Notes under the pieces: generated by a model
Seen by the model: the letters and a program-made list of their open reading frames with translations, nothing else
What the model was told of the DNA's origin: nothing
The model's database searches: none
Program-made: the position numbers and the translations under genes
Shown here: positions 5,789 to 38,153 of the stretch, one piece after another
Numbering within the stretch: the first letter of the stretch is position 1
Layout: each line of letters starts with the position of its first letter
DNA from: Bacteroidales bacterium
GTDB lineage: Bacteria > Bacteroidota > Bacteroidia > Bacteroidales > JAGONC01
DNA: 42,822 nucleotides
Assembly (NCBI GenBank): GCA_028716265.1
Contig: JAQUQD010000018.1
Location: 1 to 42,822 of the forward strand
Direction: 5' to 3'

Positions 5789-8374
5789 ATGATTGCATTA
5801 CTGAAGAAAGAGATCGACAGCTTTTTAAATTCCATGATCGGCTATGTGGTCATCGTCGTGTTCCTGCTGGTCACCGGACTTTTTCTGTGGGTCTTTCCCG
5901 GTCAATTCAACATTCCCGATTTCGGTTATGCAACCCTCGACAGTTTATTTGTCATCGCGCCATTCGTTTTTCTCTTTCTTATCCCTGCCATTACCATGCG
6001 GTCGTTTGCGGAAGAACAACGCAGCGGAACATTGGAGATGATCCTGACAAAACCCCTGACCGACGTTCAGATCCTCACTGCCAAGTTCCTCGCCGGTTTT
6101 CTGCTGGTGGTCTTTTCATTGCTTCCGACCCTGATCTACTTCCTCTCAGTATACAGTCTTGGGCAGCCTGCCGGCAACCTGGACATGGGAGGGACCTGGG
6201 GCTCCTATCTTGGATTGCTTTTCCTGGGCGCAGGATTTGTAGCGATCGGGCTTTTTGCTTCATCCATAACTGACAATCAAATCGTTGCCTTCGTCGTAGC
6301 GGTACTGATATGCGGATTTGCATACGTCGGTTTTGAGTTGATCCATTCGCTGGAGCTTTTTGGGAAGTCCACCCTGTTCGTTCAGACGCTGGGGATCCAG
6401 TCGCACTATGCCTCCATCAGCCGCGGTGTAATCGACACGCGCGATGTGATCTATTTTCTGAGCCTGATCGCATTGTTCCTCATGCTTACTTTCCTGGTGA
6501 TGAAGAGCAGGATGTGGGAAGCGGGGGGCAGTCGGCAGTCGACAGTCGGCAGTCAGCAGCCTGTCCTGAGGGCGAAGCCCGAAGGATCAGCAGCCTGTCC
6601 TGAGGGCGAAGCCCGAAGGATCAGCAGTAAAAATATACGGAGGAGTGATCTGGTGTCGTTCGGACTGGGGATGATCCTGATCATCATCGTGAACATCATC
6701 AGCTCCTTTATATTCACCCGGATTGACCTGACCTCTGAGAAGCGTTACTCTCTTTCGGAACCCACCAAGGAACTTTTACGGGACCTGGATGATATCGTTT
6801 ACTTTAAAGTTTACCTCGACGGGGAGTTTCCTGCCGGATTCAAGCGGTTGAGCAATGCCGTGAAAGAGATGCTGGATGAGTTCAGGGCCTATTCTTCCAG
6901 GATACAGTATGAATTCATCAATCCCGCCGATGCTGCCACGCCTTCGGAAGTGAAGGCCCGCCAGGAAGAGCTGATACGAAAAGGCTTGAATCCCACCGAC
7001 CTGATGGTGAAAACCAGCGACGGGTCGACACAGCAGATCATCTTTCCGGGAGCCATTGTTTCGTACAGACAGACCGAGCTGCCCCTGGAGTTCCTTCAAA
7101 CCCAGATCAACCAGACACCGGAACAGATCCTCAATCATTCGGTACAGGCGCTGGAGTACAACATCTCCAGCATGATACACAAACTCACCCTCCGCACCAA
7201 ACCGGCGCTGGCCTTCATCGAAGGTCACCGGGAACTGCAGGAGATCGATGTGTATGATATAACTTCATCGCTCAGCGAGTATTATAAAGTGGAACGTGTC
7301 AGCATCGATGAGCGGATTTTTGCACTTACCGGGCGGGACACGACCAGTGATGGAGAGGTCATAATCCGGAACAAATATGCCGCCATCATCATCGCACAGC
7401 CTCAAACCGCTTTCAGTGAAAAGGACAAGTTCATCATCGATCAGTACATCATGCATGGAGGTAAGGTCCTCTGGCTGATCGATCCGGTACATGCCACCAT
7501 GGACAGCCTGGTTTCTTCCCCCACGACGATGGGTCTGGCCATAGATCTGAATCTACAGGATATGCTCTTTAACTATGGCGCCCGCCTGAATCCCGACCTG
7601 ATCCTTGACCTCAACGCGCTGCCTATACGGATGGTGACCGGCATGATGGGCGACCAGCCACAGATCGATTTCGTGCCCTGGTATTATTTCCCAGTCCTGT
7701 TCCCAACTTCCGGTCATCCGGTCGTGCGGAACCTGAATGCAGTCATGACCAATTTTGTCAGCAGCCTGGATACGGTGGAAGCGGAAGGGATAAAGAAAAC
7801 CATCCTGCTGACGACCTCACCTTATTCGAGGATACTGCAGACCCCGGTACTGATCGACCTGCGCCTTTGCCAGGAGGAACCCGACCAGCAAAGCTACCGG
7901 ACAGCCAATGTGCCGGTGGCCGTCCTACTGGAAGGGGAATTCGAGTCGCTGTTCAAAAACAGAGTCCCTCCACAGATCCAGGACAGCCCCCTGATCGGAT
8001 TCAAAGAAAAGAGTCAACCCACGGGGATGATCGTTGCGGGAGACGGTGATATCATTCGCAACCAGCTTCACGCGTCCCAGGGATACCCTTTGCCACTCGG
8101 ATTTGATCAGTACACACGGCAGCATTTCGGCAACCGCGATTTTATCCTCAATGCGGTCAATTACCTCTGTGATGACTCCGGCTTGATCGCGGCACGGTCA
8201 AAAGAGGTGAAGCTGAGGTTACTGGACAACACAAAGCTGACCTCCGGCCGGACAAGGATACAGTTGATCAATACCGTACTTCCGGTGGTGGTGATCCTGG
8301 CGTACGCCATCGTCAGGATGTACAGGAGAAAACACCGCTATGCACGCGTAATCAGACCACGAACAACATCCTGA
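5789..8374 (+). CDS. gldFG: GldF-GldG fusion: gliding-associated ABC transporter permease and auxiliary subunit
   Basis: GldF and GldG are normally separate proteins (about 240 and 560 aa) that with GldA form an ABC transporter associated with gliding in Flavobacteria. Here one 861-aa frame covers both. Residues 1-246 are GldF, with about six membrane segments and the permease block MRSFAEEQRSGTLEMILTKP. Residues about 283-861 are GldG: one N-terminal membrane helix (GMILIIIVNIISSFIF), then RIDLTSEKRYSLS, a large extracytoplasmic domain, and a C-terminal helix before RMYRRKHRY. GldF seems to reach its natural end at MKSRMW. Residues 247-280 are encoded by short repeats (6527-6627) that contain no in-frame stop. 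An internal GTG at 6653, preceded by GGAGGAG at 6639-6645, could start GldG separately. No gldA is in the window. Confidence 0.9.
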   Translation: MIALLKKEIDSFLNSMIGYVVIVVFLLVTGLFLWVFPGQFNIPDFGYATLDSLFVIAPFVFLFLIPAITMRSFAEEQRSGTLEMILTKPLTDVQILTAKFLAGFLLVVFSLLPTLIYFLSVYSLGQPAGNLDMGGTWGSYLGLLFLGAGFVAIGLFASSITDNQIVAFVVAVLICGFAYVGFELIHSLELFGKSTLFVQTLGIQSHYASISRGVIDTRDVIYFLSLIALFLMLTFLVMKSRMWEAGGSRQSTVGSQQPVLRAKPEGSAACPEGEARRISSKNIRRSDLVSFGLGMILIIIVNIISSFIFTRIDLTSEKRYSLSEPTKELLRDLDDIVYFKVYLDGEFPAGFKRLSNAVKEMLDEFRAYSSRIQYEFINPADAATPSEVKARQEELIRKGLNPTDLMVKTSDGSTQQIIFPGAIVSYRQTELPLEFLQTQINQTPEQILNHSVQALEYNISSMIHKLTLRTKPALAFIEGHRELQEIDVYDITSSLSEYYKVERVSIDERIFALTGRDTTSDGEVIIRNKYAAIIIAQPQTAFSEKDKFIIDQYIMHGGKVLWLIDPVHATMDSLVSSPTTMGLAIDLNLQDMLFNYGARLNPDLILDLNALPIRMVTGMMGDQPQIDFVPWYYFPVLFPTSGHPVVRNLNAVMTNFVSSLDTVEAEGIKKTILLTTSPYSRILQTPVLIDLRLCQEEPDQQSYRTANVPVAVLLEGEFESLFKNRVPPQIQDSPLIGFKEKSQPTGMIVAGDGDIIRNQLHASQGYPLPLGFDQYTRQHFGNRDFILNAVNYLCDDSGLIAARSKEVKLRLLDNTKLTSGRTRIQLINTVLPVVVILAYAIVRMYRRKHRYARVIRPRTTS
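6527..6627 (+). repeat. Heptamer array plus two 34-bp hairpin repeats forming the GldF-GldG linker
   Basis: Four heptamers (GGCAGTC, GGCAGTC, GACAGTC, GGCAGTC; 6527-6554) and AGCAG are followed by two identical 34-bp units at 6560-6593 and 6594-6627. Each unit starts CCTGTCCTGAGGGCGAAGCC and can fold as TCCT-GA-GGGC-GAA-GCCC-GA-AGGA. Since 34 is not a multiple of three, the two copies are read in different frames, as PVLRAKPEGSA and then ACPEGEARRIS. The heptamers match those lying after the stop codons of obg and two Gfo/Idh genes. Confidence 0.9.
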
Positions 8375-18436: not shown

Positions 18437-18490
18437 ATTGTTAAATTGTTAAATTGTTAAATTGTCGACTGCTGGCTGATGACTGCCGAC
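18437..18490 (-). repeat. Composite octamer and heptamer array between Gfo/Idh and DUF1080 genes
   Basis: Four octamers ATTGTTAA/ATTGTCGA (18437-18468) are followed by heptamers CTGCTGG, CTGATGA and CTGCCGA (18469-18489). The CTA at 18490-18492 that continues the array is the TAG stop codon of the Gfo/Idh gene. In the sense of transcription the order is stop, GCAGTCR heptamers, ACAATTTA octamers, ATG of the next gene. The obg-to-PAP2 spacer has the same order and orientation. Confidence 0.85.
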
Positions 18491-19980
18491 TACAAACTCC
18501 ACCCCGCTTTATACGTATGCTTAATGTACTCTTCCGCTGCCTGTTTGGCGTTTATGGTGTCATGTTTGGTGTCGAAATGGGGATGACCGTCAATGATCTG
18601 GAATTTATCGCTGGTCACCACCCTGATCTCGTCATTGTCCCCGATGTTGGTGAAGCGCATGTTCTGTCCGTCCCATTCCAGTTCACGTTTTAGGTCCTGC
18701 AGCCGGACGGCCACGACGCCCATCACCACCATCTCGTTCATGGGGCCGGAGTATCCAAAATACGAACTGGCTTCGGTCCTGTTCCCGGGGCTTTCCTTAC
18801 ATGCCCTTACCCAGTCCATTTCGTGGCTGGTTTCGATCCGTCTCAGGGAGGGAAGCGGGCGTGAGTATGCCTCATCCATGGAGAGAGGCAGCAGGAACGG
18901 ATCGCGGCCATAGCAGCCGCACATCAGTTTTCCTTTGGATCCGATGAAAAGAACTCCGCCGTTGGGGTCGCGTCCCATGATCTCCCCGGCGGGCAGTTCT
19001 TCGGGCCGCGGAGGGAGCAGGCCGCCGTCCCACCAGGTGACCTTCACCTCAGGCATGGCCAGGCGAGGCAGATTATCCCGTTCCGGGAATGTATAGGTCA
19101 CCACTTCTGCAAGTGGTGGCGACTCAGTGTTGAACTGGGAGGAGCTGCCCTGCACTTTTACAGGGTATTTCAGCATCAATGCCTTGAAAATGGGATCCAT
19201 GATATGGCAGGCCATATCGCCCAGGGCTCCTGTGCCAAAATCCCACCAGCCCCGCCAGTTCCATGGATGGTAAATGGAATGGTACGGCCGTTCCGGCGCC
19301 GGTCCGAGGAAAAGATCCCAGCGCAGGGTTCTGGGGATCTTCATGACCTCTCCCGGACGCTCCAATCCCTGAGGCCAGATGGGCCGGTTGGTCCACGCAT
19401 GCACTTCCCTGATCTCCCCGATGGCGCCGTCCCAGATCCACTCACAAGTCTGACGGATGCCTTCCCCTGAATTGCCCTGGTTACCCATCTGTGTGGCCAC
19501 CCTGTAGTTCGCTGCAACCTCGGTCATCTGACGTGACTCCCATACGGAATGGGTCAGGGGCTTTTCGCAATAGACATGCTTCCCCAGTTTCATCGCATTA
19601 ATGGAAACAATGGCATGGGTATGGTCGGGGGTGCCGACCACCACGGCGTCGAACTGGTTTGCCATCTTGTCGAACATTTCCCGCCAGTCGTAAAATTTCG
19701 CAGCACCCGGGAACTCATTGAAAAGATCGGATGCGTAATCCCAGTCCACATCGCACAGGGCTACGATATTTTCACTTTTGACGGCTTTGATCACTCCTCC
19801 GCCACGACCACCAATGCCCACGCCCGCGATGTTCAGCTTATCGCTCGGCATGCGGTGCCCCAGTCCTGATACCACATAACTGGGAAGGATCGTAAATCCC
19901 GCTGCCGCTACACCGGCAGTCTTCAGGAACGTCCGGCGGTCCATCCCGGCATTCTCTCGTTGTTGATTGTTGTCACTCAT
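18490..19980 (-). CDS. Tat-exported Gfo/Idh/MocA family oxidoreductase
   Basis: This NAD(P)-dependent sugar oxidoreductase of about 496 aa carries a twin-arginine signal (MDRRTFLKTAGVAAAGF), so it should act folded in the periplasm. The Rossmann block IAGVGIGGRGGGVIKAV, the NAD-site sequence GTPDHTHA and the catalytic-lysine motif YCEKPLTHS are present, followed by the Bacteroidetes-type region NWRGWWDFGTGALGDMACH. I chose the ATG at 19980; an in-frame ATG at 20016 would add 12 residues. Its TAG stop codon lies in a heptamer array. Substrate is unknown; with DUF1080 nearby, oxidation or reduction at C3 of a glycoside is plausible. Confidence 0.9.
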   Translation of the reverse strand: MSDNNQQRENAGMDRRTFLKTAGVAAAGFTILPSYVVSGLGHRMPSDKLNIAGVGIGGRGGGVIKAVKSENIVALCDVDWDYASDLFNEFPGAAKFYDWREMFDKMANQFDAVVVGTPDHTHAIVSINAMKLGKHVYCEKPLTHSVWESRQMTEVAANYRVATQMGNQGNSGEGIRQTCEWIWDGAIGEIREVHAWTNRPIWPQGLERPGEVMKIPRTLRWDLFLGPAPERPYHSIYHPWNWRGWWDFGTGALGDMACHIMDPIFKALMLKYPVKVQGSSSQFNTESPPLAEVVTYTFPERDNLPRLAMPEVKVTWWDGGLLPPRPEELPAGEIMGRDPNGGVLFIGSKGKLMCGCYGRDPFLLPLSMDEAYSRPLPSLRRIETSHEMDWVRACKESPGNRTEASSYFGYSGPMNEMVVMGVVAVRLQDLKRELEWDGQNMRFTNIGDNDEIRVVTSDKFQIIDGHPHFDTKHDTINAKQAAEEYIKHTYKAGWSL

Positions 19981-22112: not shown

Positions 22113-22238
22113 TTAAAATCCAAATTCCAACATCCAAACCCCAAACAAATTCAAACACCCAAATTCCAAACACCAAGGTCCAAATAAATCCCAATATCCA
22201 AATCCCAATACTACAGACTGTTAACTGCCGACCGCCGA
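22113..22238 (-). repeat. TTCCAAA-type and heptamer repeats between two Gfo/Idh genes
   Basis: From 22113 to about 22205 there are degenerate units such as AATTCCAA, CATCCAAA and AATCCCAA, with a period of about 7-8. The heptamers CTGTTAA, CTGCCGA and CCGCCGA follow at 22218-22238. The next CTA (22239-22241) is the TAG stop of the gene to the right. On the coding strand the first part reads as repeated TTTGGAAT, which mimics the TTTG promoter element. Confidence 0.8.
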
Positions 22239-36900: not shown

Positions 36901-37358
36901 AAAATCGCACGATCGAGTCCCGCGAGGCCATATATGAGATCATTCAGAAGTGTGAACTCTGCCACGTGGCCATGGTCGACAGGGAAAACAAACCCTATGT
37001 CCTGCCTTTCAATTTCGGATTTGAAAATGGTATTATCTATCTGCATTCAGCCCCCGAAGGGAAGAAGATCTCCATCCTGGAGCACAATAACCGCGTATGC
37101 ATCGCCTTCAGCACCGATTATCTTCTCCGCTACCAGCATGAGGAGGTAGCCTGCAGCTGGAGCATGAAATACCGGAGTGTACTGGTACATGGTCATATCG
37201 AATTTTTGGAGGATCTCAGCGACAAGGCCCGCGCTCTCAATGTCATCATGAAAAAATATGCAGGGAGGGAATATACCTTCGGCAAGCCGGCACTGGCGAA
37301 TGTCAGGGTCTATCAATGCGTTGCGGAGCGGTTTGAGGGAAGAGCTTACGGGTATTAA
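36897..37358 (+). CDS. Pyridoxamine 5'-phosphate oxidase-fold (NimA-like) flavoprotein
   Basis: This 153-aa protein belongs to the split-barrel FMN-binding family that includes NimA-type nitroimidazole reductases. CELCHVAMVDRENKPYVLPF near residue 20 and GIIYLHSAPEGKKI are characteristic, and VCIAFSTDY and RSVLVHGHIEFLED follow. I chose ATG 36897, which overlaps the preceding stop codon; a longer frame upstream only reads through the membrane protein gene. A small-molecule reductase role is the family norm, but the substrate is unknown. Confidence 0.88.
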   Translation: MKNRTIESREAIYEIIQKCELCHVAMVDRENKPYVLPFNFGFENGIIYLHSAPEGKKISILEHNNRVCIAFSTDYLLRYQHEEVACSWSMKYRSVLVHGHIEFLEDLSDKARALNVIMKKYAGREYTFGKPALANVRVYQCVAERFEGRAYGY

Positions 37359-37498
37359 ATTCCAAATTCCAGGGTCCAAGATCCAAATAAATTCCAAAAA
37401 CCAAATTCCAAACAAATCACTATGATTCAAATCTCAAACAACCGGTTTGGAATTTTAATCCTGGAATTTGTTTGGAATTTGGGATTTGGTTTTTGGGA
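37359..37498. repeat. ATTCCAA-type repeat forming a large inverted repeat
   Basis: Degenerate ATTCCAA units run from 37359 to about 37420 on the plus strand and from 37498 back to about 37441 on the minus strand. Segments such as AAATTCCAAAAACCAAATTC (left) have close counterparts in the right arm, so the region can fold into a long stem between the convergent PPOX and PAP2 genes, where it may serve as a terminator. The right arm runs into the PAP2 coding sequence. Confidence 0.8.
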
Positions 37499-38054
37499 TT
37501 TTTAAAGCATATTGACAGATGATAGCGATGGCAAGTCCCAGCGCTGATCCCAGAATCGTCCCCCCGATGACATCTCCCGGATAGTGTACCCCAAGATAAA
37601 TGCGGCTGTAGGATATGATCGCTGCCCAGAGGAGGATCAGCGGTGTGAAGTATTTCATCTTTTTGCCCAGAAAAGGAATCAGGAAGACCGAGATGGCAAA
37701 ATGGTTGGTAGCATGAGAAGAGACGAAGCTGTACTGTCCCCCGCATTTGTCCCTGACCGTATGGACAAGGCCCGCCAGAGAAGGTTCATGACAGGGGCGA
37801 AGCCGTTGGAAGATATTCTTGAAAAGATTGACGGACGTCTGGTCGCTGAGAAACATCAGGATGGCGACGAACAGCAGGATGATGATCGTTTGTTTCTTAT
37901 AGTACCTTATCAGAAAATAGATCAGCAGCAGATACAGGGGGATCCATATCAGCCTGTCGCTCAGCCAGTACATCGCCGTATCCCAGAACGGGCTGTTCCA
38001 GCCGTTGATCAGGAGGAAAAGGTTCCTGTCGAGCTCTTTTATTCTTTCGATCAT
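37455..38054 (-). CDS. PAP2 family phosphatase
   Basis: This 199-aa integral membrane phosphatase has the PAP2 signature in three parts: KNIFQRLRP, SSHATNHF (in place of the usual PSGH) and SRIYLGVHYPGD. All three expected catalytic blocks are present. Family members dephosphorylate lipid phosphates such as undecaprenyl diphosphate. I chose the ATG at 38054; the codon before it is TTG. The last 14 or so residues (KIPKTKSQIPNKFQD) are encoded by the ATTCCAA-type repeat and are probably not functional. It follows obg with a repeat-filled spacer. Confidence 0.9.
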   Translation of the reverse strand: MIERIKELDRNLFLLINGWNSPFWDTAMYWLSDRLIWIPLYLLLIYFLIRYYKKQTIIILLFVAILMFLSDQTSVNLFKNIFQRLRPCHEPSLAGLVHTVRDKCGGQYSFVSSHATNHFAISVFLIPFLGKKMKYFTPLILLWAAIISYSRIYLGVHYPGDVIGGTILGSALGLAIAIICQYALKIPKTKSQIPNKFQD

Positions 38055-38057
38055 CAA

Positions 38058-38153
38058 ATTGTTAAATTGTCAAATTGTCAAATTGTTAAATTGTTATTCC
38101 TTGTTCTATTGTTCTATTGTTTCTATTGTTTACTGCTGACTGCTGACTGCCGA
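38058..38153 (-). repeat. Composite octamer and heptamer array between obg and PAP2
   Basis: Octamers AAATTGTT and AAATTGTC (about 38058-38095) are followed by TGTTCTAT-like octamers (about 38100-38130) and three heptamers, CTGCTGA, CTGCTGA and CTGCCGA (38133-38153). The obg TAA stop (38155-38157) is 1 nt away. In transcription sense the order is stop, heptamers, octamers, ATG, the same as at 18437-18490. Confidence 0.85.

Follow-up and report, generated by a model that had tools for sequence, protein, structure and literature searches.

The gldF-gldG fusion described here is real and genus-wide: in all three examined species of one Bacteroidales genus, GldF and GldG are encoded by a single uninterrupted open reading frame. 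The outcome is of a known kind, and the derivation of the linker from heptamer/palindrome repeat DNA is unusual. The window (that is, the whole 42,822-nucleotide stretch of DNA analysed) lies in contig C18 of G000, a 3.09 Mb draft genome in 166 contigs. We consider it very likely that the locus as a whole is best explained by a single, repeat-bridged GldFG polypeptide in which the reading frame is kept and the sequence of the linker changes freely.

The fused reading frame and its repeat-derived linker

Translation of the window yields a stop-free open reading frame at 5789-8374 on the plus strand, which comprises 861 codons and specifies a product of 96.5 kDa. The GldF model TIGR03518 matches residues 1-240 (325.2 bits, above the cut-off of 288.5; model positions 1-239 of 240), and the GldG model TIGR03521 matches residues 289-852 (626.1 bits, above the cut-off of 389.85; model positions 2-552 of 552). 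The frame contains a GldF part, an ABC-2 type permease (residues 1-243; 5789..6517, plus strand), an open linker region that includes the repeats (residues 244-288; 6518..6652, plus strand; EAGGSRQSTVGSQQPVLRAKPEGSAACPEGEARRISSKNIRRSDL), and a GldG part, also matched by PF23357 and PF09822 (from residue 289; 6653..8371, plus strand).

The linker region contains two types of repeat. A heptamer array of a genome-wide repeat family, GGGGCAG TCGGCAG TCGACAG TCGGCAG TCAGCAG, occupies 6525..6559 of the plus strand; GGGGCAG precedes four TCRRCAG heptamers, which span 6532-6559. Two identical copies of a 34-bp palindromic unit follow on the same strand: copy 1, at 6560..6593, is read in codon phase 2 as PVLRAKPEGSA, and copy 2, at 6594..6627, is read one frame over, in codon phase 0, as CPEGEARRIS. 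The third frame of the unit contains TGA. The linker peptides of the predicted GldFG fusion are MWEAGGSR, QSTVGSQQPVLR, and AKPEGSAACPEGEAR. Comparison with shuffled sequences gives 2 occurrences of the palindrome core vs. 0 expected and 17 heptamer pairs vs. 3.3 expected. The gldF-gldG junction has no Rfam match to a known structured RNA. An earlier, sequence-only reading of the window had proposed one open frame through a repeat-derived linker lacking a stop, with four TCGGCAG-type heptamers and two 34-bp units in different frames; coordinates, content, and missing stop were all correct. The same reading had placed the natural end of GldF at MKSRMW; in the nearest relatives this is not the exact end, as their GldF extends 3 to ~18 residues further.

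The AlphaFold model (mean pLDDT 87.8) places the linker in a coil at residues 245-272, with pLDDT of about 48-69 over residues 241-280, and begins the first GldG helix at residue 273, ahead of V289. A sequence search found no solved structure. In a structural comparison, NosY of NosDFY resembles the GldF half of this model (Foldseek E about 1e-4, TM about 0.7 on the target); the likeness is confined to that half, and the matched entries have no GldG-like fusion. By analogy with such six-helix permeases, GldF would have both of its ends, and GldG its N-terminus, on the cytoplasmic side, and a cytoplasmic linker would therefore require no change in topology. Judging from its sequence, the open reading frame most likely yields one continuous GldFG polypeptide, whose linker would be disordered and probably cytoplasmic, and the fusion would be functionally equivalent to separate subunits. 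In Flavobacterium johnsoniae, gliding and the localisation of GldA to the membrane both depend on GldF and GldG, which are encoded by separate genes, Fjoh_2722 and Fjoh_2721 (PMC9127263). The present locus resembles the GldAFG transporter in that both curated models score above their cut-offs and GldA is present in the genome, and differs in that GldF and GldG are fused. GldA scores above the cut-off in all three genomes of the genus, and in G000 is encoded elsewhere than gldFG; a search of the same genomes detected GldM in G000 and G002 and did not detect it in G001, so that a gliding or T9SS role is a possible one for the genus.

Conservation of the frame and the start of GldG

A search for homologues among 60 relatives found two further species of the genus of G000 (the window genome): G001 and G002. 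The uninterrupted frame is present in 3/3 species, as a single open reading frame of 850 residues in G001 (85% identical) and of 899 residues in G002 (77%); these two loci recur as L039 and L038 in an order-wide locus set. The linkers differ in length and content. Between SRxW and SFG there are 46 residues in G000, 35 in G001 (EAGGSQQSEVRSQKSYRQGKEPGEERLNVRRSDLL), and 81 in G002, where the linker DNA consists of GGAGGCR and TCARCAG heptamers together with another type of palindrome; W-E-A-G-G opens all three. Values of dS among the three species are 1.05-2.04, at or beyond saturation, and dN/dS is about 0.06-0.09 in both halves. Because synonymous sites are saturated, a neutral spacer would be scrambled and would not be expected to keep the frame. 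The alternative frames of the linker contain 1 and 3 stops in G000, 1 and 1 in G001, and 1 and 0 in G002. In shuffled linkers, a stop-free frame arises with a probability of 0.13 for G001 and 0.03 for G002. To this is added a chance of 1/3 per species of being in frame, or 1/9 for the two further species together, which is modest evidence on frame alone. These results provide good but not overwhelming evidence that the frame of the linker has been maintained across the genus. The array is, by its sequence, spacer-like DNA, yet here appears to be a maintained protein linker. The proposal that it is an ordinary spacer whose stop was lost therefore holds for the type of repeat and fails for a mere lost stop in one genome, since the in-frame fusion is genus-wide.

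Two explanations would leave GldF and GldG separate. According to one, a stop in the repeat was lost through an error of sequencing or assembly, a possibility raised by the sequence-only reading. Repeats are error-prone, and the three genomes of the genus are all drafts, G000 being in 166 contigs and two or more of the three being labelled as metagenome-assembled. However, G001 and G002 were assembled independently and show the same fusion with in-frame linkers of their own, so that one shared error is impossible, and other heptamer spacers in G000 keep their stops. These results argue strongly against an error that conceals a stop, and we regard true separate genes on this account as exceedingly improbable. 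According to the other, GldF carries a read-through spacer tail, and translation of functional GldG starts independently, either internally at a GTG (6653-6655) or by reinitiation. This explanation draws on GGAGGAG at 6639-6645, seven bases before the GTG, and on two in-frame codons of the G002 linker, an ATG and, before it, a TTG, because of which G002 may have a separate GldG start. Against it, the position of the GTG holds TTA in G001 and ATA in G002, and the apparent Shine-Dalgarno sequence supplies the R-R-S codons of NIRRSDL (6632..6652, plus strand), a conserved N-terminal GldG segment that lies upstream of the GTG and reads NVRRSDLL in G001 and NLRTSSLI in G002. GldG of relatives starts a few residues before the corresponding basic segment, N-I-K/R-R. 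The NIRRSDL codons differ between G000 and G001 mainly by synonymous changes (AAT/AAC, CGG/AGA, AGT/AGC, GAT/GAC, CTG/CTT), and thus both species evidently translate the segment in this frame. Since the first predicted GldG helix begins at residue 273, a start at V289 would cut the helix, with loss of 16 residues as well as NIRRSDL. The G001 linker has no in-frame ATG, GTG, or TTG, and a conserved in-frame fusion is unexpected if initiation is internal. We reject GTG 6653 as the start of GldG and consider separate production of GldG unlikely.

Ancestral state and recurrence of GldF-GldG fusion

In G003, G004, and most of the order, GldF stops shortly after SRKW and GldG is separate. The GldF tails of relatives past the tryptophan, each ended by a stop, include SRKWERKK, SRKWDRAKIKTTVEG, and, in Lentimicrobium, SRKWEKQEK...; because the tail is short in the nearest relatives, the repeat must lie within it or just after it. 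A tree of 78 loci unites the three fused members of the genus in one clade (SH-aLRT 100), and the surrounding genera have separate genes. The comparison with close relatives suggested by the sequence-only reading thus bears out the fusion: G001 and G002 are fused, and the nearest other genera are not. On the same tree, the fused label requires 8 gains or losses, of which 7 are forced; sampling favoured in-frame pairs, and the share of fused loci therefore carries no meaning. Other fusions in Bacteroidales (for example, L052, L054, L073, L085, L113, and L115) are single open reading frames with the same domain order and have short, non-repetitive linkers, 10-73 nt in the measured interval, as compared to 112-250 nt for the same interval in the two relatives within this genus. 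With seven forced changes and non-repetitive linkers elsewhere, GldF-GldG fusion is a recurrent event, not new and having arisen several times in the order, and the origin of the linker is its one unusual part.

Several further apparent fusions were rejected: in G010, G031, G052, G055, G058, and a G000 paralog on contig C58, the DNA shows separate genes, the listing having read through stops. The C58 locus (G000:C58:3593-6530) is a second gldA-gldF-gldG-like cluster, with F and G separate and a stop between them; no heptamer array was seen at its F-G junction.

A repeat family within and between genes

Three-unit heptamer matches number 176 in G000, 117 in G001, 147 in G002, 90 in G003, and 122 in G004, and a reversed control pattern gives 0-1 matches in the same genomes. 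The family comprises arrays of 7-bp units and palindromes of 34-37 bp, and in nearly all contexts read the palindromes adjoin heptamer units. Array statistics come from fetched stretches containing 28 arrays of G000 and 24 of G002. The array start lies 20 nt or less downstream of a same-strand stop codon for 20/52 arrays; a count of 21/52 includes the array at 38133-38153 of the window, assigned by the script to an overlapping, probably spurious open reading frame. The statement of the sequence-only reading that such heptamers follow the stop codons of other genes in the window is correct, as seen at 38133-38153, 22225-22236, and 18476-18494 (minus strand). Several arrays keep register with the very stop codon that they follow (TAG NNNN TCAGCAG), and TAG is enriched at array-adjoining stops (14/24 vs. 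21/97 elsewhere; binomial p about 1e-4). Stop-registered arrays are found at L131, L182, L192, L203, L204, L209, and others, and some array positions look common to species (KAVVGLE before the stop in L131 and L209) despite dS over 1. Mobilisation of the palindrome by a RAYT, as for REP-type elements, was rejected: eight Y1_Tnp loci in the three genomes have no copy of the unit within fetched flanks of about 1.5 kb.

No sense frame of a TCRRCAG array contains a stop, and TCARCAG arrays have TGA in antisense; in-gene arrays therefore lie in sense. In-frame repeat segments occur in MutS2, in AACS (an acetoacetyl-CoA synthetase-like AMP-binding enzyme), and in IspG of G000, G001, and G002, and in SRAP of G001 and G002. 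In MutS2, AACS, and IspG, the segment is at the same position of the protein in all three species and differs in repeat content. The AACS insert is absent in G003 and G004, and the IspG and MutS2 sites there hold only shorter, unrelated sequence. The repeats also form C-terminal tails of KASIII-like proteins (G000, G002), an ABC ATPase (G002), and a small protein (G000), and a NAD-dependent epimerase of G000 (L186:356-1405) has an in-frame array of 13 heptamers, 91 nt, inside its domain. Peptides recur between proteins: SAACPEGEARRISS is common to G000 GldFG and G001 AACS, and SAACPDERSEIRI to G000 AACS and G001 SRAP. The gldF-gldG junction is one of several sites occupied by the repeats and the sole gene-joining case in the sample.

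The MutS2 linkers lie between the coiled coil and the MSSS/Smr part and vary in length (L121, at G000 C3:15228; L210, G002; L239, G001). The IspG, AACS, and SRAP inserts are at L002:743-2452 (minus strand), L171:1166-3019, L195:1728-2447, and L274. At the AACS insert site of G002 (L229), there is a different repeat-like peptide, APPQPLPNWGGAKGG, the sequence of which suggests that one type of repeat replaced or invaded another.

According to the explanation that we favour, a heptamer array with occasional palindromic units would have taken over the short gldF-gldG spacer before the genus diversified. The array, of a family normally located just after stops, would have removed both the stop of GldF and the start of GldG, and, because the heptamers are stop-free in all frames of this orientation, would be read straight through. 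It would since have expanded, contracted, and swapped units, with survival only of versions that keep GldF and GldG in frame. The result would be a GldFG of ~96.5 kDa, an ABC-2 permease fused to the auxiliary subunit GldG and working with the ATPase GldA, in which a disordered, probably cytoplasmic spacer, of a sequence that would matter little, connects the last GldF helix to the first GldG helix. The same process would account for the repeat-derived segments in several other proteins of the genus.

The repeats may also be given a more active role. One proposal is that the family is a general source of in-frame linkers, such that stop-seeded arrays extend, invade, and join proteins, and that 7-bp slippage in long arrays could reversibly switch GldG, MutS2, and the epimerase; we think this unlikely. 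A narrower proposal, that the heptamer array is a phase-variable switch in which gain or loss of one 7-bp unit toggles GldG (and MutS2, the epimerase, and SRAP), has in its favour a unit length that is not a multiple of 3 and in-gene arrays of 8 units in G002 gldFG, 11 in G002 MutS2, and 13 in the G000 epimerase. However, the gldFG array of G000 is short, with four to five imperfect units, and we judge such a switch very improbable. Among these arrays, the one in the G000 epimerase is a candidate site of 7-bp slippage.

Short tandemly repeated repetitive (STRR) heptamers of heterocystous cyanobacteria are likewise 7-bp units in dispersed short arrays; the likeness is by description, and the phylum is different. 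Rickettsia palindromic elements (RPE) and other MITEs also place repeat DNA in frame at tolerated sites of conserved genes (PMC10969869, PMC2229807), an outcome shared by the MutS2, AACS, and IspG inserts. RPEs are about 150 bp with conserved peptides, as against 7-bp arrays and ~34-bp palindromes here, a distinction made by size only (vs. PMC10969869); moreover, the repeats of this genus turn over between species and also bridge two genes. A literature search of partial coverage returned no paper on such Bacteroidales heptamers, on STRR heptamers, or on repeat-bridged gene fusion. The locus provides a clear case of two genes fusing through read-through of intergenic repeat DNA, and of a protein linker in which frame alone is kept as the sequence turns over. 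With the parallel inserts in MutS2, IspG, AACS, and SRAP, the rate of replacement and the tolerance of repeat-derived segments become measurable, and gene callers and error models should not call such frames mistakes.

Other short repeats are found near the arrays. A/T-rich octamer tandem repeats, ATTGTTAA / AAATTGTT, adjoin heptamer arrays at 18437-18465 and 38056-38131 of the window, and similar AACAATTT runs follow arrays at L163 and L131. Short repeats of the CCAAATTCCAAAC type, another intergenic type, occur at 22118-22208 and 37357-37501 of the window.
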